From an uncultured Gemmatimonadota bacterium (GTDB taxonomy: Bacteria; Gemmatimonadota; Gemmatimonadetes; Gemmatimonadales; Gemmatimonadaceae): a stretch of DNA of 64,000 nt. The translations under genes and the position numbers were made by a program. Positions 34,256 through 64,000 of this stretch are shown piece by piece. Position 1 is the stretch's first letter, and every line of letters begins with the position of its first letter. The notes beneath the pieces were generated by a model. The model saw nothing but the letters and a program-made list of their open reading frames with translations, searched no databases and had not been told where the DNA came from. The DNA lies in contig CAIRYG010000014.1 in NCBI GenBank assembly GCA_903882745.1, forward strand, positions 1-64,000, read 5' to 3'.

Positions 34256-34930
34256 TTAGTTCCGGCGACCGCCGCCCATCAGGTTCAGGATTGCCATGAA
34301 CATGTTGAGCAGGTCGAGGTAAATCTGTACGGCGGCCATCACGTAATCGTCGGGCCCGTACACGTTGCGCAGGCGCCAGGTATCGAAGATCAACAGGCCG
34401 CTGAACACGAGGACCGTGCCCGCGGAGATCCAGAGTCCGGCGGCCTGGCTCTGGAAGAAGAAGTTGAGCAGGCTCGTGGCGATCAGCACCCAGAGGCCAA
34501 TCGTGAAGAAGCTGCCCCACGCGCTGAAGTCGCGACGGCTCACAAAGGCATAGCCCGTGAGGACGCCGAAGGTGCTCAATGTCAGGATCGCCGCGTTCCC
34601 CGTGACGCCCGGGTTCGTGCGTTCCATCATGTAGATGACGGGAGCCATGGTCAGGCCCATCACGAACGAGAAGAGGCCGACCAGGACCACGTTCTGCGGG
34701 AATGCCGTGCGCGCGCGCATCGCCAAGAAGAGCGGCGCAAAGGTGCACAGCATGGTGATCCACGGATGCTGAATGACCGCGGCCATCATTTCCGGTTGTC
34801 CCAGTCCGAACCAGGTGCCCAGCACGGTCACGCAGACACTCGCGAAGACGAGCGCGTAGGTACGACGCACGAGCGTCGCGCGATCCGCGCCACTGCGAAC
34901 GACTCCGATGCTCTGATACGAATAGCCCAT
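34256..34930 (-). CDS. Bax inhibitor-1/YccA family membrane protein
   Basis: Seven-helix membrane protein of 224 residues of the TMBIM/BI-1 family, whose bacterial members (BsYetJ, YccA) conduct calcium or modulate FtsH. Family features are TYALVFASVCVTVLGTW in TM1, GLTMAPVIYMME in the middle, AILTLSTFGVLTGYAFVSRRD, and the C-terminal DTWRLRNVYGPDDYVMAAVQ and IYLDLLNMFMAILNLMGG segments with the Asp pair implicated in the pH-sensitive calcium gate. It is monocistronic, with a perfect -10 box upstream. Confidence 0.92.
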   Translation of the reverse strand: MGYSYQSIGVVRSGADRATLVRRTYALVFASVCVTVLGTWFGLGQPEMMAAVIQHPWITMLCTFAPLFLAMRARTAFPQNVVLVGLFSFVMGLTMAPVIYMMERTNPGVTGNAAILTLSTFGVLTGYAFVSRRDFSAWGSFFTIGLWVLIATSLLNFFFQSQAAGLWISAGTVLVFSGLLIFDTWRLRNVYGPDDYVMAAVQIYLDLLNMFMAILNLMGGGRRN

Positions 34931-35061: not shown

Positions 35062-37233
35062 TCACTCCGCCGTCCGCCGCGGGGAGATGAGGAGCAGCGC
35101 GATGGGTCGGTGTCCGGACGTGTGGGTCGGAGGTCCCCCCCGCGTTGTCTCGCGACGCGGCGTGGCGAGCGCGGCCAGCGCCGCGCTCGTGCGCGCGAGC
35201 CACTGGAGGTCATGCGCCACGGGCTCCTGTAGCACCCGCTCAAGGACGGGCTCGACGCCAGCCGCGGGCGCCTGGCGTAGTGCGAGGCGAAGCTGCGCGA
35301 TCGCCGCCGCCGCTGCCCCCTGCGCCGCGACGGGCGTGCGCGGCAGGACATCCATGGCACGCCGCATCAGGCGTCGGCGCAGGGCCGTGCGCGGTCCGCT
35401 GGCGTCAAGCGCGGCGAGAGCGCCTCGATGTTGAAGCAACCGCGTGAGCGCACGGAGCACGTCAGCGATTTGACGGGGCGACACGCTGACGCGCGCCGGC
35501 ACGATCGGGACCGACACGCCAGCGACGATGCGAACCAGGCGCGCGGGATCCGTTGTCAATGTGACAGTACGGGCGAAGCGGGTACCGCCAACCAGCACCC
35601 GTTCGCCTGCGCTTTCGACGACTGCGAGGAATCCCGTGGCCATTCCCTGTACGCTCCCGATCACGAGGTGGCTCGCCCCATCGGCTAGTGCAGCGGAGTT
35701 CGATGGCCAGCACCCCACGAGCTCGCGCAACCGTTCCCGTGCGTCGCTCGCCGCTGTTGCGCGTGCTCCCGCGCGTGCCTTTTCCTTGTGCCGCCGCTGC
35801 ATTCCCATTGTGCGCGCGACCTCGCGCGACTGCGCTACGACGTACTCGAACACCGTGGTCTGTTCCGACCCCATCCGCGCCACGCGTCCCGTGCGCTGTC
35901 GGACTCGGGCGGGTGTCCAGGGGAGATCGAAGTGCACCACCACACCAGCACCCTGCAGATTTACTCCTTCACTGAGCACGTCGGTGGTCAGCACAAGGTG
36001 CACGCGATCATGCGACGGACGTCGCGCGGCCCCGCCAGGCGCGAGCGCGGCAATCACATCGGCCCGCGCCCGCCGTCCGTCCGCCGAATGCGCGCCATCG
36101 GCCGTAAGCAGCACCACATGCGGCTCCCCCCGCAGTTCGCGATACAGCGCGCGCACGGTCGCGGCGTGCTGGGCAAAGGCGATAATCGGCACGTCCGGAT
36201 GCGCGCGGAGCACGCCACGCAACAGCGCGGCGCGTCCAGCGGTGTCGCGCCCCTCCACCGCGCGTGCCCGCTCGATGAGTGCCCGCACCGCCTCGCAATG
36301 CGCGCGGAGCGTCTCGTGCCACTGGTGGGTATCGGCGCGTGGTGGGTCGAGCGCGAAGCGGAGTTGCACGGTGTCGTCGCCGACCAGCCAACGACGAAGT
36401 TCCGCCGCGTTCGGCCACTCTCCTTGGGCCAACGCCGCAGCGAGCGCTTCGCCGCGCTGCAATCGACGGCGCAGTGCGGCACCGAGCGCAGCGACGCTCG
36501 AGCCGCGCGCGTGCAGGAGGCCCATCGCCACCAGCGGTCCTGCGGTCCCACCCTCCTGTAGCGGAACCGCTGCCGGCAGCGCACGAATCTCACGCTCGAG
36601 AGTCGGCGTTCGCGGCACCACCAGCGGGGGCGCGGTCACGATGGTCGGTAACCGCGCGCTCGACAGCTGCCGCCGAACGATGCACCGCGACAACATCTCC
36701 GCGTCCAGTCGTGCCGCCGACCCGAGAAAGAGCGCCAGTAACTCCTCCAGTTCGGTCAGACGATTCCGGACGGGCGTCGCCGAAAGCAGCAGAACGGCAC
36801 GACCCGCGCAGGCCGCGGCGATCGCCTGACGCCGCGCCGTTCCCTGCGCTCCGACGTGCTGGGCTTCGTCAATGATCACGAGATCCGCGTCGCACTGCGG
36901 AGGCGACCGCCGACTCATGCGCTCGAGCGACACGAAGGTGGCCGGCACCTGCGCGAGCTGGCGACTTCGTGCCCAGGGGTCACGAACAGCTGCGGGAGCG
37001 AACACCACCGGGCGTGCAAACTCGCGGGCAACGGCCAGCGCGACGAATGTCTTCCCCATTCCGGGATCGTCGGCGAGGAGTGCGCCGCCATATCGACGAA
37101 CCGCCGCGAGCAGGCGACGCACGGCATCCGACTGATGCGCATGGAGCGTGATGGCGCCGAGTGGGGGTGGCGCGCTCTCCGTCTCACCGAGCACGGCGCG
37201 TCGGATGAGGGCCGTCGCTAGCTGTGTGTCCAC
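35062..37233 (-). CDS. SNF2-like superfamily 2 helicase (partner of N6-MTase)
   Basis: DNA translocase/helicase of 723 residues. Motifs in order: HAHQSDAVRRLL near residue 32, Walker A LLADDPGMGKTFVALA near residue 52, VIIDEAQHVG (DEAQ) near residue 117, LLSATPVRNRLTELEELLAL (motif III) near residue 148, LTTDVLSEGVNLQGAGVVVH (motif V) near residue 415 and QRTGRVARMGSEQT (motif VI) near residue 448. The remaining ~260 residues are helical and not recognisable. No nuclease motif is evident. The start is GTG 37233, overlapping the methyltransferase end by 16 bp, so the two proteins are translationally coupled. The set resembles the helicase plus adenine-methylase pairs of phage-defence systems, but none of the usual additional subunits is present. 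Confidence 0.85.
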   Translation of the reverse strand: MDTQLATALIRRAVLGETESAPPPLGAITLHAHQSDAVRRLLAAVRRYGGALLADDPGMGKTFVALAVAREFARPVVFAPAAVRDPWARSRQLAQVPATFVSLERMSRRSPPQCDADLVIIDEAQHVGAQGTARRQAIAAACAGRAVLLLSATPVRNRLTELEELLALFLGSAARLDAEMLSRCIVRRQLSSARLPTIVTAPPLVVPRTPTLEREIRALPAAVPLQEGGTAGPLVAMGLLHARGSSVAALGAALRRRLQRGEALAAALAQGEWPNAAELRRWLVGDDTVQLRFALDPPRADTHQWHETLRAHCEAVRALIERARAVEGRDTAGRAALLRGVLRAHPDVPIIAFAQHAATVRALYRELRGEPHVVLLTADGAHSADGRRARADVIAALAPGGAARRPSHDRVHLVLTTDVLSEGVNLQGAGVVVHFDLPWTPARVRQRTGRVARMGSEQTTVFEYVVAQSREVARTMGMQRRHKEKARAGARATAASDARERLRELVGCWPSNSAALADGASHLVIGSVQGMATGFLAVVESAGERVLVGGTRFARTVTLTTDPARLVRIVAGVSVPIVPARVSVSPRQIADVLRALTRLLQHRGALAALDASGPRTALRRRLMRRAMDVLPRTPVAAQGAAAAAIAQLRLALRQAPAAGVEPVLERVLQEPVAHDLQWLARTSAALAALATPRRETTRGGPPTHTSGHRPIALLLISPRRTAE

Positions 37234-40200
37234 GTGAGCAGCGCCGCGGCATCGCGCGGCCGAAGGTGATAACTGGCGAGCACGGCCGCGGTGTGCGTCG
37301 CGGCATCCGGCGGCGAGCCCGCGGCCGCGGCGCGACCAATCGGCGCGAGCCGGTCCACCGCGCGTCCCCAGTCGCGTGGAATCGGGAGCCGCGCGACGGT
37401 CCAGCCAAGAAAGCGGTGATAGCCGCCGCGCGCCGGTTCGGCGATCATGGTGAGCCAGGCAATAATCGGCGGCGCGTTGAGCAGCACCGCGAGCGCATGC
37501 GCGTCATCGTCGCTCGGCGCAAGAATCGCATAACAACTGTTGAGCGGCACAGCCGGATTCCCGCGCTCAAGCACCACCGCGCGCGGCGTCCGACCGATGT
37601 CACCCCAGACGACACGTGGGAGGTCGGTGCGAGCCGCGTCGGTGCGGAAGAGTTGCCACCAGGCGCCGCGACCCTGTGCGTCAGTCCGCGCGCTGAGTCG
37701 ACGGGACCACGGCCGAAGCCATTCGTGCGCGCCAGCGGGGAGTCGATCGAGCGGTGCTCCCAAGGCGTCGTGCGTCCAGATGATCCGCTCGTCATTCGGC
37801 GGGCGATGCCAGGCCTGCAGCCCTTCGCCACGGAGCACCGGCCTTAGCACGCGCTGTTCAATGGCGCCTGTGGTATCGTTGGCTGCCACACGACACACGT
37901 CGTCGGAGCACGGTGGGTCCCCACTTGATCGCTGTTCGAGCGCCTGGTCGAGCGCCTGGTCGAGCGCCTGCACGAGAAAGGCATCGTTACACCCGGTCTT
38001 CACCCCCAAGAGGGGACGTCCTAAAACCGTTGACGACAGCGGCTCCCCCGCCCCTGCGAGTCGCTCGAAGTCGCGGCGCACATCCGGCGGAACGAGCGCC
38101 CAGGGGGCTCCGGGGGTGCCCTCAATCGGGAGATCGTCGGTGCGCGACTCCCACGCCAAGAGGCGATCCCGTCGTGCCACACCAACACGTACCGTCCCAT
38201 CCTGCGCGGCGTCCTTGGTGCGAGTCGCAACCACGAGCGAGGGATACACCACCGCGTCGAAGGTGGAGGGACCCTCGCTCCAATCGGCGATCTCGCGCAG
38301 CGTTGCTTCTTCAGCAAGCAGCTGCCGCACCCCACCTCCAGCAAGCGCACGCCACAGCTTGGCGGGAACCAGCAGTGCGAGTGTCCCCGTCGGCCGAAGC
38401 AGCGCCAGCGAGCGCTCAATAAAAAGCGCGGACAGATCGGCTTGCGCAGCGAATCCTCGCCCCGCTCCAGTCGCGTCGGCCCCCGCAGCCCACGCGGCGT
38501 CACGCATCACGCGATAGCGGGCGCGCAGGTCGGTACGGTCTGCGGGCGCAATATGATGCAGCCGCACCCACGGAGGATTCCCGATAATCGCGTCAAACCC
38601 ACCCCGGGCCGCTACATCAGGAAAGTGGCTCCCGAACGCGAACGGAAGGCTGCCGCCGCTCCGCAGGACTGCGAGTCGTCGACGCGCCTCCCGTACCGCG
38701 CCGCGCAACTCGGCGAGCCGGCGAAGCTGTGCCGCCGTTGCTGTGGTCCGATCCAAAAAGAGGTCGCGGGATCGGAGCGCGCAGAGCATGTCACGCCGCC
38801 GCGAGACGGCCAAATCCAGCGCGCGCGTCGCCAGCGCAATCGCGGCCGTACGCTCCTCGCGGTCGATGGCGCGGGCGAGCGTCCGTTTGCGAACGCCAGT
38901 CGCGCGCGTGTACCGGCCGCGTAATCGCTCGAGCGCTATGCCCCCCGTGCGCGGCGCCTCATCAAAGGCCGTCCCTGCGAGCGCGTCGCCGACGCGAATG
39001 TTGCGGTCCAAGTTCGGTAACGGCATCACGCGCGACGGGTCCGACTCTTCCGCATCAATCACCACCGACAACCAGAGCCGTAGCTCACAGAGCCACACCG
39101 CGGTGGGGTTAATATCCACCCCAAAAATCGACGTGGTCAGCACATCACGCCGTCGCAGCGAGAGCGAGCGACGATCGCCGGCAGCGCCCGACAGCGCGGC
39201 CAAGCGTTCAAGAGCGTGCACAAGAAATGCTCCCGATCCGCAAGAAGGGTCAAGGATGCGCACCGCGCGCACCGCATCGGCCAAGCGCCGAGCGTCGCGC
39301 GCCCTGACGCGTTCGCCGGCCTCCGCGGCGCGTACCACACGTTCCTCAGCACCAAAACGCGCAAGCGCGGCCTCGAGCCCCGCACCGGCCACGCGATGCA
39401 GCAACTCGTGCGGTGTGTAAAACGCGCCTGCGGCCCGTCGCTCATCGCGCGCCATAAGCGACTCGAAGGCCCGCCCCAACATCTCAGGATCCACCGCAGC
39501 CTCTGACCATCCCGCCTGCTCCTCATGCGCCGTCAGTCGGTAACGACCCAACAACGACAGCATCAGCTCGGCGAGCGCATCATCCGCCAGCACGACGTGC
39601 CGCGCCCGCCGCTCAATAGGAGTCCGCGCAAAGAGTCCGCCATTGAGGAAGGGAATGCGCCCGAGCGCGCGGGCTGCCGCGGACCGATTCGACGCCGGCG
39701 TATTGAGCGTGCCAAAGAACAACGGTTCCAGAAAGCAACGATGCAACCCACCTCCACCCTCGAGTTGATGCATCGCGCGATGACGCAGATACTCGCGGTC
39801 CTCGTCGAGCCAGCCCTTCGCTTGCAGAAACGAGAGAAAAAGAACGCGCGTGGTGTTCAGCAGTGCGAGTTCGTGACGAACCGAATCGGGTGCTTGCCCG
39901 CGTGCCGTCGCCGCGAGGTCGAGCACACTGCGCTCAAGCTCACGATAGAAACGCCGCGTGAGATGATCACGCCCCAGCACCTCCGCCCAGCGGTGATGCA
40001 CCAGCACGTCGGGTCCTCGGCGCGCACTATGCACCGCCGCGAGTGTTTCCGCATCGCTCGGCAGCACACGATCTGGCTCAATGCGTAAAACCGGGACGCG
40101 TGGAGACGCCGACGGAGCGGCAAGCACCACCGCGCGCGTGTCGCGCGTGACCACCACGACCAGCCAGAGCAGATGGGGGGCACGCAGTGCGACCGTGCGG

Positions 40201-40445
40201 CAGAGTGCCGCGAGCTCTGCGCGCGTCCAATCGCCCAGTGCGGCGTCGATCGCCAGAAAGCGCAGCGTCCCGGCACCGGCGGCTACTGCGGCGCGGCGCA
40301 CGCGGGCATCAAGACCGAGGTGACGCCGGCCCGCGGCGTCTAGCGGGAGCGGTTCGTCAAAATCGAGCAGCGTCGCGATGCCGAGGACATCGCGGTACGC
40401 GTGGAGTCGCTGGAGCTGGTCGGCGAAGTCACGAAGTGTAGGCAC
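37218..40445 (-). CDS. N6-adenine DNA methyltransferase, Eco57I/PglX-like (putative R-M or defence methylase)
   Basis: Large methyltransferase of 1075 residues. Residues 1-330 are an N-terminal region of uncertain fold. The bundle before the catalytic core contains GAFYTPHELLHRV near residue 342. The SAM motif ILDPSCGSGAFLVHALER is near residue 397, GVDINPTAVWLCELRLW near residue 440, and the adenine-N6 catalytic FDAIIGNPPWVRL near residue 620. A specificity-like C-terminal region begins with LLGVKTGCNDAFLV near residue 820, as in type IIG and PglX enzymes. A 12-bp repeat adds Ala-Leu-Asp-Gln units to it. The start is GTG 40445 (no ATG fits), within an 18-bp palindrome. No PD-ExK nuclease motif is obvious, so whether it cuts DNA is open. 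It is followed at -16 bp by the helicase. Confidence 0.88.
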   Translation of the reverse strand: MPTLRDFADQLQRLHAYRDVLGIATLLDFDEPLPLDAAGRRHLGLDARVRRAAVAAGAGTLRFLAIDAALGDWTRAELAALCRTVALRAPHLLWLVVVVTRDTRAVVLAAPSASPRVPVLRIEPDRVLPSDAETLAAVHSARRGPDVLVHHRWAEVLGRDHLTRRFYRELERSVLDLAATARGQAPDSVRHELALLNTTRVLFLSFLQAKGWLDEDREYLRHRAMHQLEGGGGLHRCFLEPLFFGTLNTPASNRSAAARALGRIPFLNGGLFARTPIERRARHVVLADDALAELMLSLLGRYRLTAHEEQAGWSEAAVDPEMLGRAFESLMARDERRAAGAFYTPHELLHRVAGAGLEAALARFGAEERVVRAAEAGERVRARDARRLADAVRAVRILDPSCGSGAFLVHALERLAALSGAAGDRRSLSLRRRDVLTTSIFGVDINPTAVWLCELRLWLSVVIDAEESDPSRVMPLPNLDRNIRVGDALAGTAFDEAPRTGGIALERLRGRYTRATGVRKRTLARAIDREERTAAIALATRALDLAVSRRRDMLCALRSRDLFLDRTTATAAQLRRLAELRGAVREARRRLAVLRSGGSLPFAFGSHFPDVAARGGFDAIIGNPPWVRLHHIAPADRTDLRARYRVMRDAAWAAGADATGAGRGFAAQADLSALFIERSLALLRPTGTLALLVPAKLWRALAGGGVRQLLAEEATLREIADWSEGPSTFDAVVYPSLVVATRTKDAAQDGTVRVGVARRDRLLAWESRTDDLPIEGTPGAPWALVPPDVRRDFERLAGAGEPLSSTVLGRPLLGVKTGCNDAFLVQALDQALDQALEQRSSGDPPCSDDVCRVAANDTTGAIEQRVLRPVLRGEGLQAWHRPPNDERIIWTHDALGAPLDRLPAGAHEWLRPWSRRLSARTDAQGRGAWWQLFRTDAARTDLPRVVWGDIGRTPRAVVLERGNPAVPLNSCYAILAPSDDDAHALAVLLNAPPIIAWLTMIAEPARGGYHRFLGWTVARLPIPRDWGRAVDRLAPIGRAAAAGSPPDAATHTAAVLASYHLRPRDAAALLTWTHS
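37936..37971. repeat. 12-bp tandem repeat in the methyltransferase gene
   Basis: TCGAGCGCCTGG occurs twice perfectly and a third time with a changed last base. On the minus strand it encodes ALDQALDQALEQ next to the GVKTGCNDAFLVQ motif. It could vary in unit number without breaking the frame. Confidence 0.9.
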
Positions 40446-40454
40446 ATGCCTACA
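40437..40454. promoter_or_regulatory. 18-bp palindrome over the methyltransferase start codon
   Basis: TGTAGGCA-CA-TGCCTACA is a perfect inverted repeat with a 2-bp centre. It includes the GTG start codon (40443-40445) of the methyltransferase gene. Its position fits an operator or translational control site for timing methylase/helicase expression. The binding protein is unknown. The rest of the 91-bp gap up to the HAD gene shows nothing distinctive. Confidence 0.6.
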
Positions 40455-40536: not shown

Positions 40537-41190
40537 TTAGCGGCGCGCGAGCAAGTCGGGGAGCGACGCGAGTGCGTCCAAGAGATACGTGGGATTGCTC
40601 GCCACCAGTTGTTCGCGCGAGAATGGTCCCCACAGCGCGGCAATCGTGTCGACGCCGGCGGCATTTCCTGAATACACGTCGTGCGGAGAGTCCCCGACGA
40701 ACACGGCTTCGTCGGCACGCACATGGAGCAGCTCGAGCGCGAGCAGCACTGGCTCCGGCGCCGGTTTATGCTTGGTCACACTGTCTGCGCCAACGAGCAC
40801 CGGCAGAAAGGGCGCCATCCCAGTGAAATCCAGCGCCTCCTGTGCGAGCATGTTCCCTTTGGAGGTCACGAGTGCCATCGCGAGCCCGCGGCTCTGGAGT
40901 TCACGGAGCACGGGGAGCGAGTCGGGGAAGGCACGCGCCAGTAGCTGGTGCTGCTCCTTTTGGTGCAAGCGATACCGGTCACGAAGCGCAATCAGCTCGT
41001 CGTCGGTCCGCGTGTACGCTCCCAGTTGCTTGATCAGCGGGGTTCCGATGCCCGCGATCCAGTCTTCCGTGGTCGGATGTGGGCCTTCAAACCCTTCAAA
41101 GGCATACCGCATGCAGGCCAACAGAAGCGCGATAGAGTCAAACAGGGTGCCGTCGAGATCGAACAGGACGGCTTTCAGCGGAGGGCGCAT
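40537..41190 (-). CDS. HAD-superfamily phosphatase (phosphoglycolate-phosphatase-like)
   Basis: Haloacid-dehalogenase-fold hydrolase of 217 residues with an alpha-helical cap (subfamily IA). Motif I is VLFDLDGTLFDS near residue 8, motif II VTSKGN near residue 108, motif III Lys in KHKPAPEPV near residue 143, and motif IV VFVGDSPHDVYSGNAAG near residue 162. The likely substrate is a small phosphate ester (phosphoglycolate, pyrophosphate or sugar phosphate), not distinguishable here. It is on the same strand as the upstream glycosyltransferase (31-bp gap) and the downstream methyltransferase (91-bp gap). Confidence 0.9.
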   Translation of the reverse strand: MRPPLKAVLFDLDGTLFDSIALLLACMRYAFEGFEGPHPTTEDWIAGIGTPLIKQLGAYTRTDDELIALRDRYRLHQKEQHQLLARAFPDSLPVLRELQSRGLAMALVTSKGNMLAQEALDFTGMAPFLPVLVGADSVTKHKPAPEPVLLALELLHVRADEAVFVGDSPHDVYSGNAAGVDTIAALWGPFSREQLVASNPTYLLDALASLPDLLARR

Positions 41191-41221: not shown

Positions 41222-42379
41222 TCAGCGTGAGACGTATTGGCGTCCCTTCCACTCCACGCGCTGACCTCGCCAGGACGCCGACGCAAAGATCCAGAATAGC
41301 ACCGCACTCGCCATCGGATTCAGCCAGATGTACCACAGCGATTGCTTGGCCTGGAGGTAGGGCGGAATCCAGCCGAGCGAGGTAAAGAGGTAGGCCGCGA
41401 GGGCCCACCACCCGACCGCAGCCGGGAGAACTCCCGCCACAGCGAGCAGGCCCGCCACAGGAGCCACGAGTTCCCAGAGTGGCGGGAGCGGAAAGAGGAC
41501 GCGCAGCACGCGTTGTCCCATTGGTCCGAGGGGGAGTGTGTCGCGCCCACCGGCCCAGACGTTCTTTCCCCAGCCGCGAATGATGTCGCCAAGTCCCGAA
41601 TACATGCGTGTGAAGAGATGTTCGATGCCTGTGACCATCTGCACGCTCATCCCCGCCCGCGTCACGGCTTGGCCGAGCATCAAATCTTCTCCCACATGCG
41701 AACGCACGGCGGCATGTTGTCCCACGCGATCGTAGGCCTCGCGGGTAATCATCAGGTATTGCCCGTTCGCCACCTTGCCGTATGGTGACTTGGCGCGGCT
41801 GATCGTTTCTGACCCACCGAAACGCGTCAGGAGCAGCATAAAAATGTGCGGCTGCACGAGCTTCTCCCAGAAGCTTTCCATCAGTTGCTGTCCCGCGACG
41901 CTGAGCAGGTCGGCGCCGCGGATGCGCCGCGCATTTACCGCACGGGGAAGGCACTCGGGGCCGTGTCGCGTGTCGGCGTCGGTGAAGAGCAAAATCTGTC
42001 CGCTCGCCAACGCGGCCCCGTTCTGACAGGCCCACTGTTTGCCGAACCACCCCTCGGGGAGATCGGGATTCGTAAGGACCCGTGCGCGCGGATCGTTTGC
42101 AGCGACGCGACGCGCGATGTCTCCCGTGCCGTCGGTCGAGTGATCGTCCACGACAATCAGCTCAAATCGCGGATGCTGCGAGGCCAGAATACTGCGCATA
42201 CAGCCTTCGATGTGCACCGCTTCGTTTCGCGCGGGAAGCACAATCGACACCGACTCGGTATCGTCGCCAACCGGTAGCGGATACCGGTCGAGTTCAGTCG
42301 AGTCACTCACCCGCCAGAGGACAAACAACGGCACCAGCGCCCAGGGAAGCGCAGCAACAAGAATCCAACCGGTCGACAT
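41222..42379 (-). CDS. Membrane-anchored family 2 glycosyltransferase
   Basis: GT-A glycosyltransferase of 385 residues. A short N-terminal membrane segment is followed by SVSIVLPARNEAVHIEGCMR, the nucleotide-binding IVVDDHSTDGTGDIA, the DxD-type LLFTDADTRHGP near residue 130, acceptor-side VGEDLMLGQAV near residue 228 and IIRGWGKNVWAG. Three or four C-terminal helices close the chain. The architecture matches enzymes glycosylating carotenoids or hopanoids (CrtQ/HpnB-like), which is a guess at substrate class. Its ATG shares one base with the stop codon of the symporter gene (TAATG), so translation is coupled to it. Confidence 0.86.
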   Translation of the reverse strand: MSTGWILVAALPWALVPLFVLWRVSDSTELDRYPLPVGDDTESVSIVLPARNEAVHIEGCMRSILASQHPRFELIVVDDHSTDGTGDIARRVAANDPRARVLTNPDLPEGWFGKQWACQNGAALASGQILLFTDADTRHGPECLPRAVNARRIRGADLLSVAGQQLMESFWEKLVQPHIFMLLLTRFGGSETISRAKSPYGKVANGQYLMITREAYDRVGQHAAVRSHVGEDLMLGQAVTRAGMSVQMVTGIEHLFTRMYSGLGDIIRGWGKNVWAGGRDTLPLGPMGQRVLRVLFPLPPLWELVAPVAGLLAVAGVLPAAVGWWALAAYLFTSLGWIPPYLQAKQSLWYIWLNPMASAVLFWIFASASWRGQRVEWKGRQYVSR

Positions 42380-43641
42380 TACGCGTTCTGGTCTGTGGGA
42401 GTCGGCGAGGAGCGGCGGCCCAGCAAGGCCGCGACCGCCATATCCGCGGTGACGTTGGTCGTGGTCCGGAACATGTCTGGGATCGTATCCACACCGAGCA
42501 GAATCCCCATGCCGGCCGGCGGGAGCCCCGCGGACATGAGCACTGGGACCATCATGAGAATCGAGCCGCCCGGAATTCCTGGCACGGACAGCGTCGTGAC
42601 GACGCTTGTGATGGCAATCGTGGCGAGTTGCGCAGGGCTGAGCGCGACATCGTAGAGCCGCGCCACGAAAATTGCGCCAATCGTCTGGCCAATCGCCGCG
42701 CCGCAGCGGAACAACGCCACCGCGAGCGGCAGGAGGAAACTCGTGACTCGCTCATCGAGTTGTAGGCGATCGCGTGCACTGTCGAGCATGGCGGGTAGTG
42801 CCGCCAGCGACGATCGCGACGAGAAGGCCACCGCTTGGCCCGGCAGTGCCCCGCGCGCAAAGGCCCGCAGCGACACCCCGCCGAAGAGGACCACCACCGG
42901 ATACAGCACCACCACACAAAACAGCACCGACGCCCCACTCACGAGCCCCACATACGTCACCAGCGCACCGATTGCCGCCACACCGAGTTTGGCGCCGAGG
43001 GCGATCGCCAGAGCCAACACGCCAATTGGCGCGGCCGCGAGCACCCACCGCACCAGCATCAGTGATGTGCTTTCCACGCCGCGGAGCGCACCCAGGAGCG
43101 CCGAGCGCGGCCCGTCCTGCACGCGCGTCAGGGCCGCCCCAAAGGCCAAGGCAAAGACGATCAACGGCAGCATCGCGCCGTCGGACGCCGCCTTGATCGG
43201 ATTGGTCGGTACCAGATCGACAATGAACTGCGCTACCGTCGGGATGGCCTTGGCGCTCTCGAGGATCGCACCGCCGCTCGCCGCGGCATGTTCGCGAAGC
43301 GAGGCAGCCGCGGCCGGATCAATCGCCAACATTGCCACTACCGGGGGGCCGGCAATCACCCCGAGCACCGCTGCCACCGAGAGCAACACCAGGAAAAGCA
43401 CCATCGCGCGCACGCCAATCCGCCCGACCGTTCGGACATCCTCCGCGCCGCCCACCGCCAGAATGAGCGTCGAGAGCACGAGCGGTACGATCGTCATGCG
43501 GATTGCCGACACCCAGAGTGCGCCAATTGGATCAGCAATCGTCGCAATCACCTCGAGCCCTGGGATCGCGTGCGCCGCAATGCCAAGCCCAATGGCGAGG
43601 CCCACCACCAGGGCCAGAAGTACCCGAATCGCAAGAGACAT
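42379..43641 (-). CDS. Dicarboxylate/amino acid:cation symporter (DAACS family)
   Basis: Sodium- or proton-coupled glutamate/dicarboxylate symporter of 420 residues with the GltPh fold. It has eight membrane helices and two re-entrant hairpins: the HP1 serine-rich SSRSSLAALPAMLDSA near residue 265, the HP2 TTLSVPGIPGGSILMMVPVL near residue 340 and the TM8 substrate-site VDTIPDMFRTTTNVTADMAV near residue 375. ATG 43641 was chosen because it directly precedes TM1. Codons further upstream read into the divergent rhodanese gene. It is the first gene of the leftward run symporter, glycosyltransferase, HAD. Confidence 0.9.
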   Translation of the reverse strand: MSLAIRVLLALVVGLAIGLGIAAHAIPGLEVIATIADPIGALWVSAIRMTIVPLVLSTLILAVGGAEDVRTVGRIGVRAMVLFLVLLSVAAVLGVIAGPPVVAMLAIDPAAAASLREHAAASGGAILESAKAIPTVAQFIVDLVPTNPIKAASDGAMLPLIVFALAFGAALTRVQDGPRSALLGALRGVESTSLMLVRWVLAAAPIGVLALAIALGAKLGVAAIGALVTYVGLVSGASVLFCVVVLYPVVVLFGGVSLRAFARGALPGQAVAFSSRSSLAALPAMLDSARDRLQLDERVTSFLLPLAVALFRCGAAIGQTIGAIFVARLYDVALSPAQLATIAITSVVTTLSVPGIPGGSILMMVPVLMSAGLPPAGMGILLGVDTIPDMFRTTTNVTADMAVAALLGRRSSPTPTDQNA

Positions 43642-43705
43642 AGCCTCCAAGCTACGGCGCGCACCATATTTCAGATACTCCCCGACTCTCCACCCAGCGA
43701 GCATC

Positions 43706-44068
43706 ATGACCCATAAGACCGGTTCCGACCTCATCAGCGACGCCAAGACCCGCATCCGTGAAGTCAGCGCGAAAGAGGTGCAGGGGATGCTCGCCGGAAG
43801 CGCCACCGTCATCTATCTCGACGTGCGCGAACCCTCCGAATGGAATCTGGGTCGCCTGCCGGGAGCGATGCACATCCCCCGCGGAACGCTCGAGACCAAA
43901 GTCGAGGCGATGATTCCTCGCGATGCAACCGTCATGATCTACTGCGCTGGCGGAAATCGCTCGGCGCTCGCCGCCGACACGATGCAACAGATGGGCTATA
44001 CCGACGTCTGCTCAATGGCAGGCGGCTGGCGCGATTGGATCATGGCCGGAGGAGCGGTCGAGGGATGA
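43706..44068 (+). CDS. Rhodanese-like domain protein
   Basis: Single-domain sulfurtransferase of 120 residues. It has the fold landmarks VIYLDVREPSEWNLGRLPGA and the active-site loop YCAGGNRSALAA with the catalytic Cys, which would carry a persulfide. The terminal MAGGWRDWIMAGG is typical of GlpE/PspE-like proteins. ATG 43706 is preferred. The very long open frame upstream is antisense to the symporter gene. The stop overlaps the Nudix start (ATGA), and the Nudix stop overlaps the PAP2 start (GTGA), giving a coupled three-gene operon. Confidence 0.9.
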   Translation: MTHKTGSDLISDAKTRIREVSAKEVQGMLAGSATVIYLDVREPSEWNLGRLPGAMHIPRGTLETKVEAMIPRDATVMIYCAGGNRSALAADTMQQMGYTDVCSMAGGWRDWIMAGGAVEG

Positions 44069-44667
44069 CCGCCGCAGGCGCCTCCGCCGCAGAGCGACTG
44101 GCGCGCATTATCGGCGCGGTGCGCCGGCATGAGCCCACGCGCGAAACGCGCGAGGAACCGTTCTGGGAAGCCGCGGTCGCGTTGATCCTGCGCATCAATG
44201 CACAGGAGCAACTCGAGGTGCTCTTCATCAAGCGCGCGACCCGTGAGGGAGATCCCTGGAGCGGCCAGATTGCGCTCCCGGGTGGGCGTTTCGACGCGAC
44301 CGACGCCTCACTCGAACACACCGCCATCCGCGAAACACTCGAGGAAGTCCAACTCGACCTTCGCGTGCACGGCACCATCCTCGGCGCGCTCAACGAACTG
44401 CGCCCGCGTACCCCAATCCTTCCCCCCGTGATCGTGCGTCCGTTCGTCGCCGTGGTCGGTGCCGACGCGCCGGTGGGTGGGAGTGACGAAGTCGCCGCGA
44501 CCTTCTGGGTCTCGCTCGACCTCCTCTTCGATCCGGCCTCCGCACGCGAGACCGATATCGTCGTGCGCGGTCACCCGCTGCGGCGCCCTGCGATTCATTT
44601 CGGTGAGCACGCCATCTGGGGCCTCACCGAGTACATCCTCCGCTCCTTCGAACCCATCGCCGCGTGA
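44065..44667 (+). CDS. NudL-like CoA pyrophosphatase (Nudix hydrolase)
   Basis: Nudix hydrolase of 200 residues of the CoA-diphosphatase type, splitting CoA or its derivatives into phosphopantetheine and 3',5'-ADP. It shows the NudL pattern LEVLFIKRATREGDPWSGQI followed by ALPGGRFDATDASLEHTAIR and ETLEEVQLDL, the Nudix box with its Arg-Glu and Glu-Glu metal ligands. The C-terminal part has PPVIVRPFVAVV. The start ATG 44065 overlaps the rhodanese stop, and the end overlaps the PAP2 start. Confidence 0.88.
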   Translation: MTAAGASAAERLARIIGAVRRHEPTRETREEPFWEAAVALILRINAQEQLEVLFIKRATREGDPWSGQIALPGGRFDATDASLEHTAIRETLEEVQLDLRVHGTILGALNELRPRTPILPPVIVRPFVAVVGADAPVGGSDEVAATFWVSLDLLFDPASARETDIVVRGHPLRRPAIHFGEHAIWGLTEYILRSFEPIAA

Positions 44668-55812: not shown

Positions 55813-56076
55813 TTATGGAGCTGCAACGACGATGCTCTGGGTGAGAACTGGGAAGCTCCCGATCACGTTGCCGGAAGAATCCGTCCACTTGTACGACAGC
55901 GTGTAGGTGCCCGGTGCCGTACCTCCACTCAGGCCGATTCCCGTGAAGGCTGCCCCGCCCGACGTTACCGACGTCGTGGTGGTGCCGATAAGCGAGGCCC
56001 CATTATTCACGCTGATGGTGACATAGCCCGTCGCACTCCCAAGGAAGTTTCCACCAATGTCTTGAACATCATGAAC
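55813..56076 (-). pseudogene. Frameshifted C-terminal continuation of the giant surface protein
   Basis: After position ~56077 the expected Ig-like strand order continues one frame over: VHDVQDIGGNFLGSATGYVT, then SVNNGASLIGTTTT and SGGAAFTGIGLSGG, ending SIVVAAP with TAA at 55813. This aligns residue for residue with the preceding module (TTQPVIQLKDVYGNITTQGT, GATVVGTSTV, ASGFTNVGI). One base appears to be missing in the codon after Ser-Ile-Gln in the upstream frame. It is either a sequencing error, a real inactivating change or a frameshift site. Confidence 0.8.
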
Positions 56077-59000
56077 GGTTGGATCGAGAAGGGTGATCCG
56101 AGAGTTACGCCGAACGCCTGTTGCGAAAATGCCAACTGCGCCGCGGGCCCAGCCGTGACCGTGATGCTCCGCGTGGCGAAGTTTGAGCCCGACGTGAAGG
56201 TGAGCGTGTAGCTGGTGTCTGCGGTGCCCGTGATTCCGACATTTGTGAAACCGCTCGCCGCCGCAACCGTGCTCGTGCCGACGACAGTTGCACCTGCACT
56301 GACCGTCATCGTGATAGTGCCCTGCGTGGTGATGTTTCCGTAGACATCCTTCAACTGGATGACTGGCTGTGTTGTGAATGCGGATCCCGCGGCGGCACCG
56401 CTCGCGCTCGTGACGACGAGTAACTGAGTCGCCGCGCCCGCCGTGCCGGTCGCCGTGAAGGTTACGGGTGATCCGGTCAGCCCTGCCGCCGTTGCGGTCA
56501 GCGTGTTACTCCCCACCGCCGTGCCCAAGGTCCAGCTTCCCACCGTGGACGTACCCGTCGAATCGGAGACGGCGGTCGCCCCAGTAATTGAGCCAGCGCC
56601 AGTTGCCACGGCGAACGTTACGGTCACGCCGGCCACGGGCGTTCCGGTCGCGTCAGTCACACGCACACTCGGCTTGATACTGACCGCCGAGGCGACACTC
56701 GCGGATTGCGTGTTGCCCGCCAACACCGCAATGGCGGTGGGCGTCACAATCCGGATGCTGTCGTTCGCCGCGCCGCGGTAGAGCGCCGGGGCAAAGTAAT
56801 AGAATCCGGTCTCCCCGCTCGGAGCGCGTAGGTAGTGGTACGTCTCCGACTCGATGTAGAGAGCGCCGGTCGTGGTCGCCGTCGCCAATGTTGCGTTGAA
56901 TTTCACTACGGTGGGTGAAATGGTCTGCTGCGCGTTACAGTCGGGGCCTGATGTAGCGACCGCGGTGAATTTCGTCGTGGACGTTGTCCCGTACCCGCAG
57001 TGCAGGTACTCCGACATCCAGCGGCCCGGATCGGTGACGGTGACCGAGACGCGCGGCGTCGTATTCACAGCCGTCACGGGCGCATAGGTGACCGCCGACA
57101 CCGCCGTCGCGGCCACGCTCACCGGTGTCGTCGTCCCTGATGCGACGGTGACGCCGCTGAGGGCACCACTCGCGAGGACGCCGTTCACAAAGTTCGGATA
57201 CGCGCCGGGCACCGAATCGACTGCCGCTACGCGCACCCGATATCCCGTGCCAGGCGGCGCAGGAATCGTTACGGTCCCCGAGGTCATAGCGGTCCCGTTG
57301 ATGACTTGCACCAGCGGGTTCGTCAGGCCGCCGGAATCCACGGCCACGAAGTAGCGGCGTGCCGCCGGACTGGTGATCGAGACGGTGATGGCTGAGGTAA
57401 GAGCCGTCACTGAAACCGCCCGCAACGCTTCGCTGCGCTCCTTGCTCGGCGAGTAGATCCGGGGGTAGACGGTGCTCGTCCCGATCGTCAATGAAGGTGC
57501 ATAGAAGTGCCCCTGCATATACAGGGTGCCCGCGGCCCCCTGCGGCGGAAGCGTGTCGAGGACCGTCATACTATCTCGGCCGATCACGGTCTGCGCTCTG
57601 CAGATGGAGTTGTACCCTGCCGTACCGTCCGTCGTGAAGGCCGTCATCGACGCGAACACGACACCGCAGACATTCGGGGTCACGAACCACTCCGACGGGT
57701 CCCGTAGTCCAAGTGTCACCGCAACACCCTGCGCGGCGGTCACGGTCGTCGGTGCGGTGAGCGTGAGGTTCATCGCCTGCGTCGTGACTGCGACTGTCGT
57801 GGTCGCGTTCGCCGTCACCGCAACGCCGGAGAGGCGCATCCCCGCGCGAATCGTTGGCGAGCCCAATGGGTAGGTCGACAACGAATCCACTGCCATCACC
57901 CGCACGCGATAACCGCTCCCTGCGGGCACGGACAACACAAGGGAGGCCGTCTTTGCCAGGGGCACCGTCCGAGCAAAATTCAACGGCGATGTGAGGCCGC
58001 CGCTGTCCACGACCACGTAATACTGCGACGCGCCGTTCGGGTTCGTGATATTGAGCGTAATCCCTTCAATCGCCGTGCCCGTCGCCGTGAAGGTTACGGG
58101 TGATCCGGTCAGCCCTGCCGCCGTTGCGGTCAGTGAGTTGCTCCCCGCCACCGTGCCCAAGGTCCAGCTTCCCACCGTGGCTGTACCCGTCGAATCGGAG
58201 ACGGCGGTCGCCCCAGTAATTGAGCCAGCGCCAGTTGCCACGGCGAACGTTACGGTCACGCCGGCCACGGGCGTTCCGGTCGCGTCAGTCACACGCACAC
58301 TCGGCGTGATACTGACCGCCGAGGTAACACTCGCGGATTGCGCGTTGCCTGCGTTCACCGCGATGGCCGTGGGGGTCACAATCCGGACGCTGTCGTTCGC
58401 CGCGCCGCGGTAAAGCGCCGGGGCAAAGAAGTAGAAGCCCACGGCGCCCGCTGCGGAGCGGAACTGGTGGTACGTGTACGACTCGACATACAGCGAACCG
58501 ACAGCAGTGGGCGCCGGTGGGTCAATGACGAACCGGCTTACCGTGCTCGAGACAATCTGCTGCGAAACACAGGTGCTGCTCGAGGTCGATACCGCCGTGA
58601 ATTTTGTTGCGGAGGTCAAGATACCACCGCAATGGGAATACTCGGACAGCCAACGTCCCGCGTCCGTCATCGTCACGGTGATATGCGGACTCTTGTTGAC
58701 CGCGGTGGCCGGGGCGGAGGTGACCGTCGTAAACGCGGTCGCCGCGACACTCACCGGTGTCGTTGCTCCTGCCGAAACCGTCACCCCACTCGTGACACCA
58801 GTCGCCAGGACACCGCTAGTAAAGGTGGAAAAGGTTCCCGGCACAGAATCGGCCGCCGCAACACGCACGCGATACCCGGTGCCAGGCGGCGTCGGAATCG
58901 TGACCGTCCCCGACGTCATGCCCGCACCGTTGATGATTTGGTTGATCGGATTCAGGAGGCCGCCCGAATCAACCGACACGTAGTAGCGGCGTGCCGCCGG

Positions 59001-62000
59001 ACTGGTGATCGACACACTGATCGCCGACGTGACCGACGTGACCGACACCGTCTTCAACGCCTCGCCGCGCGCGAGGCTGGGCGCGTAGACGGAAGGATAA
59101 ATCGTGAGCCCACCGGCGGTGAACGACCCCCCGTAAGTCCTCCCTTGCATGTACAGGGTGCCCGCAGCTCCCTGTGCGGCCAGCGTGTCCAGCATGGTGA
59201 GACTGTCCTTGGTGACTCTGGTGTACGCCTTGCAGACATTGACGGCGGTGCCCCCGGCATCTGTCGTGAAGGGCGTCATCGATGTGTAGGCCGTGCCACA
59301 GTAGCTGGCAACCGCGATAAACTCGGACGGATCCTTCAGGGCCAGAGCAAAGGGAATCCCCTGCGCGGCGGTCACGGTCGTCGGTGTGGTCAACACCAGT
59401 CGCGTGGGCTGCGTCGTCACTGCGAGTGTGGTCAGGGCATTGGCTGTGACACTCACCCCCGAGAGGCGCATCCCCGCGCGAATCGTTGGGTAGCTCAATG
59501 GCAACGTCGCTGCCGAATCCACGGTCATGACGCGCACTCGGTACCCGGATCCCACGGCAACCGGAATCTTCAGGCTCGCTGTTGTGCTAAGCGCGACGGT
59601 GCGCGCAAAGCCGAGCGGCGCCGCCAAGCCGCCGCTGTCGACCACCACGTAATACTGCGAGGCCGCGTTGGCATTCGTGATGTTCAGCGTCAATCCCTGT
59701 GTGGGCTGCGCCACCGCGATGACCTTCTGACTTTCCCCGGCACCAATGAAGGGTGCGGTCACGTTCAAGCACACCGTACCGCTCGCGCTCCCGGAGAAGC
59801 AGGTGCTGACGGAAGTCTGGTAGAAAATGTTCGTCGCGGCTGTCGGGATCGTGGACGTGGTCGTCGCGATCGGCGCGTACGCTACCACATGGCCAGACGC
59901 GGCCGCCGTCACGCTGCCGCATGCCGCGGTCGTCGATGACAGATCGGTGGTCAGGTTGCTCGTCTGGAAATACGCGCAGCCAGCAATTGCTCCGGTGCTC
60001 AGGAGATCCGACGGATCAAACATCTTCCACGCGAACGCCAGTGGATTCCCCACTTGTTGCGTCGCCGCCGTGGTGTCGGTGACCACAACCGACGTGGCCG
60101 ACAGCGTCAGCCCCGTCAGATTGTTCGCCGTGAGGGCGAGTCCTGACACCGATCCGCCGGCAATCACGCGCCGGCCGGCTGCATCGCGCGAATCGATCAC
60201 GGCGATGCGGAGACGATAGCTCGTCCCAACCGCCGCCGGGACATCATAGGTCAGCGCGTTGGTCGGGTTCGTGGTCTGCTGCACCTGCACATACGGCGTG
60301 GTCAGTGCACCGCCATCCAGCACGGTCACAAACTTCGAGGCGGCGACCGGCGAGTTCACCGTGACGCGGAAAGCCTGAGGGGAGCGACCCACCGCAATCA
60401 CCGGCGGCGTCTGGCCCAGCTGCAAGCTCGTCCCGATCAGCCACGGGGTAATGCCCAGCGAGGCGTTGTCCGGACCGTACAGCGTGGAATACGGCCCGGT
60501 CGTCGCGACCTGCGCGCTCAACAGCACGCTGTCGCTCGGCATCGGAATCGCGACGGTTCCCGTGAGTGTAGTGCCGGTGAGTGCACCAAAGGCGCAGCCG
60601 CTAAAAGCGCTCGTTCCGGTCCGGTCGTAGCTGAACGTTCCGGGCTGAATGACGACGTATGGGTAACAGCTCGTGCTCGTAAGGCCAGCCGTGAAGAAGC
60701 GAAGGTCGAAAAACTCCGCCGGATCCGTCAGCGTGATATTTGCGGTGACCTTACTTCCCGAGGTTGCCGTTGTGGGGACGCTCAGTGCGACCGATTCCGA
60801 CAGCGCAGTGGCCGCGACGGTCGTGACGGTATTGGCTGTTACCGCAATACCGGAGATTCGGATGCCGGCAGTAATCAGCGGCTGCGTTTCGGGGTACGCC
60901 GACGCGGAATCCACCACGAGCACACGAATCCGATACCCCGTGCCCACCGGAAGCGGAATCGTCAGCGCGGCCGAACGCGCGAAGTTGCCTTGACGCAGGA
61001 AGCTGGTGCGCGCGGGCAACCCCGCGGCGACGAGCCCACCACTGTCGACCATCACGAGGAACCGGCTCGCGGCAACGGGGGACGTCACGTTGATCGTTAC
61101 GCCCTGTGTCACCGCACCAACGGTGATGCGACGTAGCGTGTCGCCTGCGGCGAGCGACGGGGCGTGCGGCATCAGCCGGACGGTGCCGTCGCCCGTCACG
61201 TAGGTCGGCCCGCTTCGAACCTGATAGTAAATGGCCCCCGCAGCGAGCTGCGCTGGAATAAGCGCGGTGTACCGCCACTGTCCACTCGCGTAACTCCCCG
61301 CGATGGCGAGTTCCGTGCCGTCATCGTCGCGCGTGAAGGGCGCGGAGCTATAAAAGACAGTGCCGCCCAGCCCTAGGATCCCCGTGGGTTCGGTGAGCGT
61401 CCAGGTGATCTTGATTTTGTCGCCAACGACGGCGGTGGTGGGCGTCGTGGAAAGATTGAAGGTGATCGGCGCGAGGGTGACGCTCGAGGTGGTGATGGCC
61501 CCCGCGGTGACCGCGAGATTCGTGGCGGTCGCCGCGCTGATGGCCGTCACCTTCGTCGTGTCGCGGACGTCGATCCCGACGATGCGAACGGCGTAGCCGG
61601 TCCCCACCGGCGTGGGAATGGTCAGGACACCGGCCGACACGGCCGTCGTATCCAAGACCTTCGTGATCGTGTTGGACAACGAGGTGCCGGTCACCTGTGC
61701 GACGTATCGCGTTCCCGCTACGGGCGCCGTAAAGTTGACCGCAATTCCTTGCTGCGGCGCGGTGATGACGGTGCTCGCCAACGTGTCACCGTACGCCAAT
61801 CGTGGTCCGTACAACACCGGTGTCAGCGTGCTGCCCGGGACCGTCGCCTGCTGCAGCACCTGCCAATACATCCGGCCCGATTGGGTCGCGGTTGGGAGGT
61901 GCGTGGTATACGAACTGAGATTGCTGGTTTGCGGACAGTCGGCAGACCTCACGTAGTAGGTGGCCAGAGCGTTCTCCGGATTTTCGTCCGCGGTCCACGG

Positions 62001-63425: not shown

Positions 63426-63429
63426 GACG

Positions 63430-64000
63430 TTAGATGCCAGTGACGGTGAACACGACGTTTCCGAGACCGGAGACCGTCGCGGTGACAGTGTTGATACCAG
63501 GGGTGGAGCCGAGAATCCAAGCGGGAAGGGTGGCGACACCGCTCCCACTGGTGACCACAGTCGTGGTGGTCACGACCGACGTCGAGCTGAGTGAGCCGCC
63601 GCCGGTAGTGACCGTGAAGGTCACCGTGGCGTTGGACACACCGTTCCCGGTGTAGTCGCGGACCTTCACCGAGAGCGCATTACTGAGCGTTGAGCCAACC
63701 GCTGCCGATGCGGCGGGGTTGGTATTCGCAATCACGGCAATCGCGGTGCCTGCGGTACCCGTGATCCAATTGGTCGGCGTGAGCACCGCTGAACCATTGG
63801 CGGTGTTATTTCCGATGGCGCCATTGCTGCCAGTGCCAGCGCAGAAGGGGACGCCGCCCGTGCTGATGCCGCAGCTGTTGCTACCAGAGAGGCGTACCGA
63901 GGTCAGCGTCAATCCACCGAGCGCGGCAACGGGGAGCGTGCGACTCGTGGTGGTCGTGGTCCCGTCGGCAAGGCGGCCATCGGTGCTGGCGTAGCCCCAG
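63430..64000 (-). CDS. RCC1-repeat/Big_1 domain protein, 5' part outside window
   Basis: C-terminal part (~189 residues) of a larger protein whose start is beyond the window. The open frame enters at base 64000 with an RCC1-type blade (WGYASTDGRLADGTT, then RLSGSNSCGISTGGVPFCAG), the surface beta-propeller repeat related to RCC1, and ends with a Big_1/invasin-type Ig domain (LSNALSVKVRDYTGNGVSNA, TVTFTVTTGGGSL, VNTVTATVSGLGNVVFTVTG). The stop TAA at 63430 is 4 bp before the start of the giant repeat protein, so the two surface proteins are likely co-transcribed. RCC1 plus Ig architectures are typical of secreted proteins. Confidence 0.85.
   Translation of the reverse strand, partial: WGYASTDGRLADGTTTTTSRTLPVAALGGLTLTSVRLSGSNSCGISTGGVPFCAGTGSNGAIGNNTANGSAVLTPTNWITGTAGTAIAVIANTNPAASAAVGSTLSNALSVKVRDYTGNGVSNATVTFTVTTGGGSLSSTSVVTTTTVVTSGSGVATLPAWILGSTPGINTVTATVSGLGNVVFTVTGI

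Follow-up and report, generated by a model that had tools for sequence, protein, structure and literature searches.

A methyltransferase–SNF2 translocase gene pair at a near-core locus of Gemmatimonadota, probably a nuclease-less descendant of a restriction–modification-like system

The whole stretch of DNA that was analysed, 64,000 nucleotides long and called the window here, carries on its minus strand two overlapping genes, one for an N6-adenine DNA methyltransferase (MTase) and one for an SNF2-type helicase.

37218 to 40445, minus strand: N6-adenine DNA methyltransferase gene, gamma-class (Eco57I/CamA/PglX-like), an open reading frame of 1075 aa with a GTG start
35062 to 37233, minus strand: SNF2-type DNA translocase/helicase gene, an open reading frame of 723 aa with a GTG start and putative translational coupling to the MTase
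37218 to 37233, minus strand: overlap of the MTase stop and helicase start, 16 nt, from the open reading frame coordinates

An earlier note on this DNA had described an Eco57I/PglX-like MTase overlapping an SNF2-like helicase by 16 nt, and the open reading frames, the motifs and the Pfam matches (Eco57I, 4e-21, for the MTase; Helicase_C, 2e-12, and SNF2-rel_dom, 3e-10, for the helicase) all agree with that description. The outer limit given there, 40454, is 9 nt further upstream than the MTase GTG start adopted in this analysis. Placement by the NCBIfam and PADLOC models is loose, with the MTase nearest to the type IIG and DrmMI models and the helicase nearest to DpdE and DrmD, and the scores of both chains fall far under the equivalog cut-offs where the models have one. 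Neither chain has a match to a nuclease model of Pfam, NCBIfam or PADLOC that spans a nuclease domain. This result, together with the absence of a conserved nuclease motif, bears out the earlier statement that neither chain has a recognisable nuclease.

Four regions of the MTase are of particular relevance to its predicted function.

40071 to 40445, minus strand: N-terminal alpha/beta domain, aa 1-125, fast-evolving, from alignment and secondary structure
39222 to 39251, minus strand: motif I, DPSCGSGAFL, aa 399-408, predicted SAM binding, from the alignment of 40 homologues
38568 to 38579, minus strand: motif IV, NPPW, aa 623-626, predicted catalysis, invariant in 40 homologues
37446 to 38225, minus strand: target-recognition region, aa 741-1000, from comparison of identity within the family

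Residues D399, P400, G403, G405, A406 and F407 of motif I are unchanged across the 40 homologues, and the chain also contains a GVKTGCNDAF motif. Mean pairwise identity within the family is 0.49 for the recognition region and 0.55 for the catalytic region, a near-equal conservation that fits a stable target without proving one. The AlphaFold model of the whole chain (pLDDT 89) finds its best structural match in CamA (Z 28.7 over residues 305-1061), followed by BrxX (Z 26.9, 158-1073), M.BseCI (26.1), LlaBIII (23.4) and MmeI and DrdV (both 23.1). These matches seldom reach into the N-terminal domain.

The helicase, whose whole-chain AlphaFold model has a pLDDT of 87, is divided between a well-matched core and a less conserved C-terminal region.

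37048 to 37071, minus strand: Walker A, DDPGMGKT, aa 55-62, with G58, G60 and K61 invariant
36859 to 36870, minus strand: motif II, DEAQ, aa 122-125, with D122, E123 and A124 invariant
35875 to 35898, minus strand: motif VI, QRTGRVAR, aa 446-453, with Q446, R447, G449, R450 and R453 invariant
35065 to 35727, minus strand: C-terminal region, aa 503-723, mixed beta/helical and weakly conserved, from alignment and the AlphaFold model

The core, aa ~14-502, is structurally similar to INO80, ISW1 (both Z about 19-20) and ZorD (Z 17.6), and by sequence the closest solved relative is RapA. Motif II reads DEAQ here; at least 90% of relatives have H125 (DEAH) at this position. Residues 503-723 are not covered by structural matches, which is no proof of anything on its own. 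It could be imagined that an unusual nuclease is hidden in this region or in the MTase N-terminus, and that the pair is a new restriction enzyme. The structural matches do leave both regions uncovered or touch only their borders, and the alpha/beta strand order of the MTase N-terminal domain is loosely like that of a nuclease core, but no acidic, lysine and histidine set is conserved in either region across 35-40 homologues, and ExK is absent from the MTase domain also in those relatives that use an HKD nuclease. We regard this possibility as very improbable. Conservation speaks against a PD-(D/E)XK nuclease at the N-terminus of the MTase, as neither its residues nor other nuclease residues are conserved within aa 1-125 in the 40-homologue alignment, and it speaks likewise against a nuclease in the helicase C-terminus, no residues of a nuclease motif being conserved in aa 503-723 of 35 homologues. 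The effector that the earlier note had thought could be concealed in the unassigned regions is not supported; both fold confidently and hold no conserved nuclease residues.

The distribution of the pair was examined in 395 Gemmatimonadota genomes, in which the family of the window is denoted f1 and its sister family f2. The MTase, usually in single copy, is present in 124 of 140 f1 genomes, 72 of 81 in f2, 6 of 7 in f3, 9 of 11 in f4 and 6 of 7 in f9, and in essentially none from the remaining families of the survey at the chosen threshold. The helicase is detected in 120 of the 140 f1 genomes; 119 have both genes, 15 have neither and 6 are discordant (Fisher p 4e-15), with two MTase-only cases among the six explained by contig ends. 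Wherever both genes were called in a fetched locus, the MTase precedes the helicase on a shared strand; the gene caller missed the helicases of L040, L041, L045 and L053, on the wrong strand, and these were counted as present from the genome-level helicase search. Identity across the family is ~50% for the MTase and ~40% for the helicase, and in 14 family genomes, most of those examined, a start codon lies exactly 16 nt ahead of the MTase stop. Because the relatives of both genes stay adjacent, in unchanged order, throughout the family, their pairing is more than chance. A neighbourhood survey for exactly this pair had been proposed earlier, and the compact two-gene unit does recur across the family.

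The surroundings of the pair are also conserved.

40537 to 41190, minus strand: HAD hydrolase, a neighbour outside the system, by Pfam; near the pair in 19 of 41 loci
34256 to 34930, minus strand: Bax1-I family membrane protein, a neighbour outside the system, by Pfam; recurrent
41222 to 44667, strand unspecified: glycosyltransferase, Na:dicarboxylate symporter and NUDIX genes, neighbours by Pfam; each in 16-17 loci

Pterin-dehydratase and sigma-factor genes recur beside the pair as well as these, and the neighbourhood is one of housekeeping genes. In five f2 loci (L058 and L060-L063) the gene immediately ahead of the MTase, in the same orientation, is a DUF402 gene. When the gene trees are compared with that of rpoB, 22 of 32 splits are common to the MTase and 19 of 27 to the helicase, and the MTase and helicase trees have 22 of 27 splits in common; shuffled trees never have more than 2 in common. 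Near-universal presence, synteny, congruence with rpoB and the recurrent overlap therefore establish that the coupled pair descends vertically. It evolves faster than rpoB, by ~4x for the helicase and ~3x for the MTase. It is also dispensable: 15 of 140 f1 genomes are without both genes, and of the 8 smallest f1 genomes (≤2.4 Mb) 7 are in this group. Searches of plasmid, phage and viral-contig sequences gave distant relatives alone, with none of the plasmid records reaching 80% coverage of the MTase, and a mobile-element origin was rejected on these results. The reading as an undescribed mobile defence module is not supported: the locus is near-core, syntenic and inherited vertically in its family and order.

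Analysis of relatives outside the phylum, found by scanning other genomes with a deep-branching MTase, proved informative as to the origin of the pair. MTase relatives occur in Chloroflexota, cyanobacteria, actinobacteria and archaea, where the gene usually adjoins a helicase of about 1000-1160 aa or has one close by. These helicases have an N-terminal HKD/PLD domain (PLDc_2, 1e-6 to 5e-11, in all five scanned), and an HxK...GSxN (or SSAN) motif can be read in all the complete ones from outside the phylum that were examined. The best PADLOC models for these proteins are C3a139 'HKD+Snf2' for the helicase and 'REase_MTase_IIG' for the MTase. The corresponding site in the window is as follows.

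37153 to 37233, minus strand: helicase N-terminus, aa 1-27, the site of a ~200-aa HKD/PLD domain in relatives from other phyla; the domain is missing here

Since the relatives in other phyla have the HKD/PLD helicase domain, the pair belongs with the HKD-SNF2 plus MTase systems, which are restriction–modification-like. The homologous MTase stands beside or close to a homologous SNF2 helicase in both, and the MTase and helicase trees agree with each other. The differences are that the helicase of those systems has the HKD nuclease domain and that of the window pair does not, and that those systems are patchy (the HKD helicase is in 19 of 201 Chloroflexota genomes) whereas the Gemmatimonadota locus is near-core and syntenic. 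The earlier proposal of a candidate novel restriction or defence module therefore holds in so far as the pair is compact and nuclease-less; its novelty does not, the pair being a derivative of a known kind, from HKD-SNF2 plus MTase.

The HKD motif is found in none of the 35 core-locus helicases of Gemmatimonadota. Two helicases of f4 retain a PLD-homologous domain (hhalign 98.6%, E 1.3e-15, 234 columns) in which HxK and GSxN are both missing, and others in f4 have dropped the domain. In f9 the N-terminal region is kept and its last 89 columns alone still align to the PLD domain, and in f1, f2 and f3 the domain is deleted. In the helicase tree and in the MTase tree alike, a nuclease-less clade (support 100) is nested among HKD-bearing relatives, and because of this nesting loss of the nuclease is favoured over gain as the more economical reading. 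A DrmD outgroup with a very long branch landed inside the nuclease-less clade and was omitted from the later helicase tree. As the ancestral partner was a nuclease, one might suppose that the pair is still a complete restriction–modification system served in trans by a nuclease encoded elsewhere in the genome. This is improbable: among the recurring families annotated in the 18-kb neighbourhoods no nuclease is recurrent, and the helicase lost its nuclease domain rather than exchanging it. HKD-SNF2 helicase plus MTase systems (L189-L197) are also scattered through f5, f6 and f7 of Gemmatimonadota and three f1 genomes (G064, G080 and G202), the latter having the HKD pair at a separate locus and keeping the core pair too.

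Several described systems combine comparable proteins. The Type-2 DUF499-centred BREX-related (BR/Hma) systems pair an N6-MTase with an HKD-SNF2 helicase, and their core includes a DUF499 ATPase and DUF3780 (PMC12839542). DUF499 (PF04465) is absent from the genome of the window and from the Chloroflexota and archaeal genomes bearing the HKD pair, and membership is ruled out by the missing core gene. DISARM class 1 (DrmMI and DrmD) similarly unites an adenine MTase with an SNF2 helicase. It is ruled out by the DrmD model, which scores 69 bits where 610 are required, and by the lack of drmA, drmB or drmC adjoining the pair, the window neighbours being HAD, glycosyltransferase, symporter, NUDIX, Bax1-I and pterin dehydratase genes. 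BREX is ruled out by a best PglX score of 54.9 against a cut-off of 900 with no BrxC or PglZ neighbours, and Dpd by missed cut-offs and missing partner genes. That drm and brx partners are absent, as noted earlier, is true of the neighbours of the pair in the window and in the fetched relatives. The type ISP enzymes (LlaBIII/LlaGI) and the type IIG/IIL enzymes (MmeI, DrdV) share the fold of the MTase module (Z about 23). Types IIG and IIL carry the nuclease in the MTase chain, and type ISP has the helicase in that chain too; the MTase chain of the window, in contrast, is without a recognisable nuclease domain or conserved N-terminal nuclease residues. By these tests of model scores, partner genes and conserved residues, the pair is not DISARM, BREX, BR/Hma, type IIG or ISP. 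In the open-access literature that was searched, neither a core pair of this kind, nuclease-less but with its motor retained, nor any Gemmatimonadota methylome was found.

A close parallel may be CamA of Clostridioides difficile, a core orphan regulatory m6A MTase (PMC8187626). CamA is the best structural match of the MTase, is likewise conserved throughout a clade and has no cognate nuclease; at the locus of the pair none is found among domain-model matches or recurrent neighbour families, and the MTase is conserved by vertical descent within its own clade (124 of 140 f1 genomes; congruence with rpoB). CamA differs in being about half as long and nearly restricted to one species. We know of no dedicated helicase partner of CamA. 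The pair would probably work in the manner of orphan MTases such as CamA, with the addition of a motor.

On balance we think it probable, from comparison of sequences, that the pair descends, with loss of the nuclease, from a restriction–modification-like system and has been kept as a core methyltransferase–translocase with a chromosomal role. The ancestor would have been a two-gene system of an HKD(PLD)-nuclease-SNF2 translocase and an N6-adenine MTase. Its nuclease active site may have decayed early in Gemmatimonadota, with deletion of the domain coming later, and the remaining MTase and translocase may have been retained as a vertically inherited, near-core unit. The MTase would methylate adenine at a specific chromosomal site, and the co-translated, ATP-driven SNF2 partner would track along double-stranded DNA in a complex shared with it, and would keep sites methylated either by removing proteins or by transporting the MTase. 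The outcome would be chromosomal, epigenetic or in maintenance, and not DNA cleavage. That both proteins are active enzymes, that they form a complex and that their role is chromosomal rather than defensive is what we infer. The last of these is favoured by the inheritance, the synteny and the coexistence with true HKD systems; against it, the pair is dispensable and conservation is slightly lower in the recognition region than in the catalytic one. The more specific notion that nuclease loss turned a defence system into an epigenetic one spanning the clade, with a core adenine MTase that works with its own SNF2 motor, is put forward tentatively, as a possibility short of an even chance.

The main rival to a chromosomal role is a resident defence that does not cut, in which the MTase would mark self and the translocase would detect invading DNA that is unmethylated and block its replication or expression. 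Blocking of invading DNA without cutting has been proposed for BREX, and the MTase aligns structurally with PglX/BrxX over residues 158-1073 (Z 26.9). The likeness of the HKD-nuclease relatives to patchy restriction–modification-type systems and the loss of the pair in small genomes point the same way, and the fast rates of the pair relative to rpoB and of the MTase N-terminal domain would also follow from a defence role. Nevertheless BREX partners are missing beside the pair, which is vertical and syntenic within an order and not mobile; plasmid, phage and viral-contig matches are lacking or distant, and three genomes hold the core pair beside a separate HKD system. We consider such a defence unlikely, yet worth keeping in mind.

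A gene pair akin to systems that defend against viruses by cutting DNA has turned, without the cutting part, into a stable, inherited, order-wide fixture, which suggests its conversion to marking or organising the chromosome of its own host. Restriction systems that lost the nuclease are a commonly assumed source of orphan MTases (Dam, CcrM and CamA among them), and to our knowledge intermediates between the two are seldom seen. Here the stages may be visible: other phyla have an HKD domain with active motif, one deep lineage (f4) has a remnant from which the motif is missing, and in the order the domain is deleted, the motor being kept throughout. Were the epigenetic reading true, it would provide a bacterial parallel to remodeller-assisted DNA methylation in eukaryotes. 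Annotation pipelines would call the core locus type IIG or DISARM-like, and defence counts in Gemmatimonadota would be inflated.

There are individual signs of degeneration at the locus. The closest relative of the window (G315; L033/L198) has, with respect to it, a 35-nt deletion in the helicase that causes a frameshift near aa 410 and is due either to decay or to an assembly error; its MTase is intact, with 84% identity to that of the window. Two other genomes represent stages of loss: G079 (L110) has kept the MTase and lost the helicase from the locus, and G294 (L112) has a truncated MTase and no helicase. It could be argued from these three that the pair is a decaying remnant without present function. 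However, the open reading frames are intact in most genomes of an order, the catalytic residues of the MTase and the helicase are invariant in 40 and 35 homologues, respectively, and dN/dS in close pairs is well under 1 for both genes (MTase 0.10-0.25, helicase 0.25-0.36, rough ratios as dS is near 1), and we hold this to be the least likely of all the explanations.

Some further loci deserve mention. On contig C11 of the window's genome (G000), at ~16-34 kb (L109, L114), there is a separate defence-like island with genes for a DrmD-like helicase (1025 aa), a IIG-type MTase (1671 aa), a DruE-like protein (1435 aa) and a GajB/NERD-UvrD-like helicase (699 aa). Plasmid pRadio5 of Deinococcus radiophilus (L115) has a related N-6 DNA methylase in a different combination, with DUF262 and a helicase-related protein. 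The window itself also contains a minus-strand open reading frame of 2513 aa at 56007-63548.
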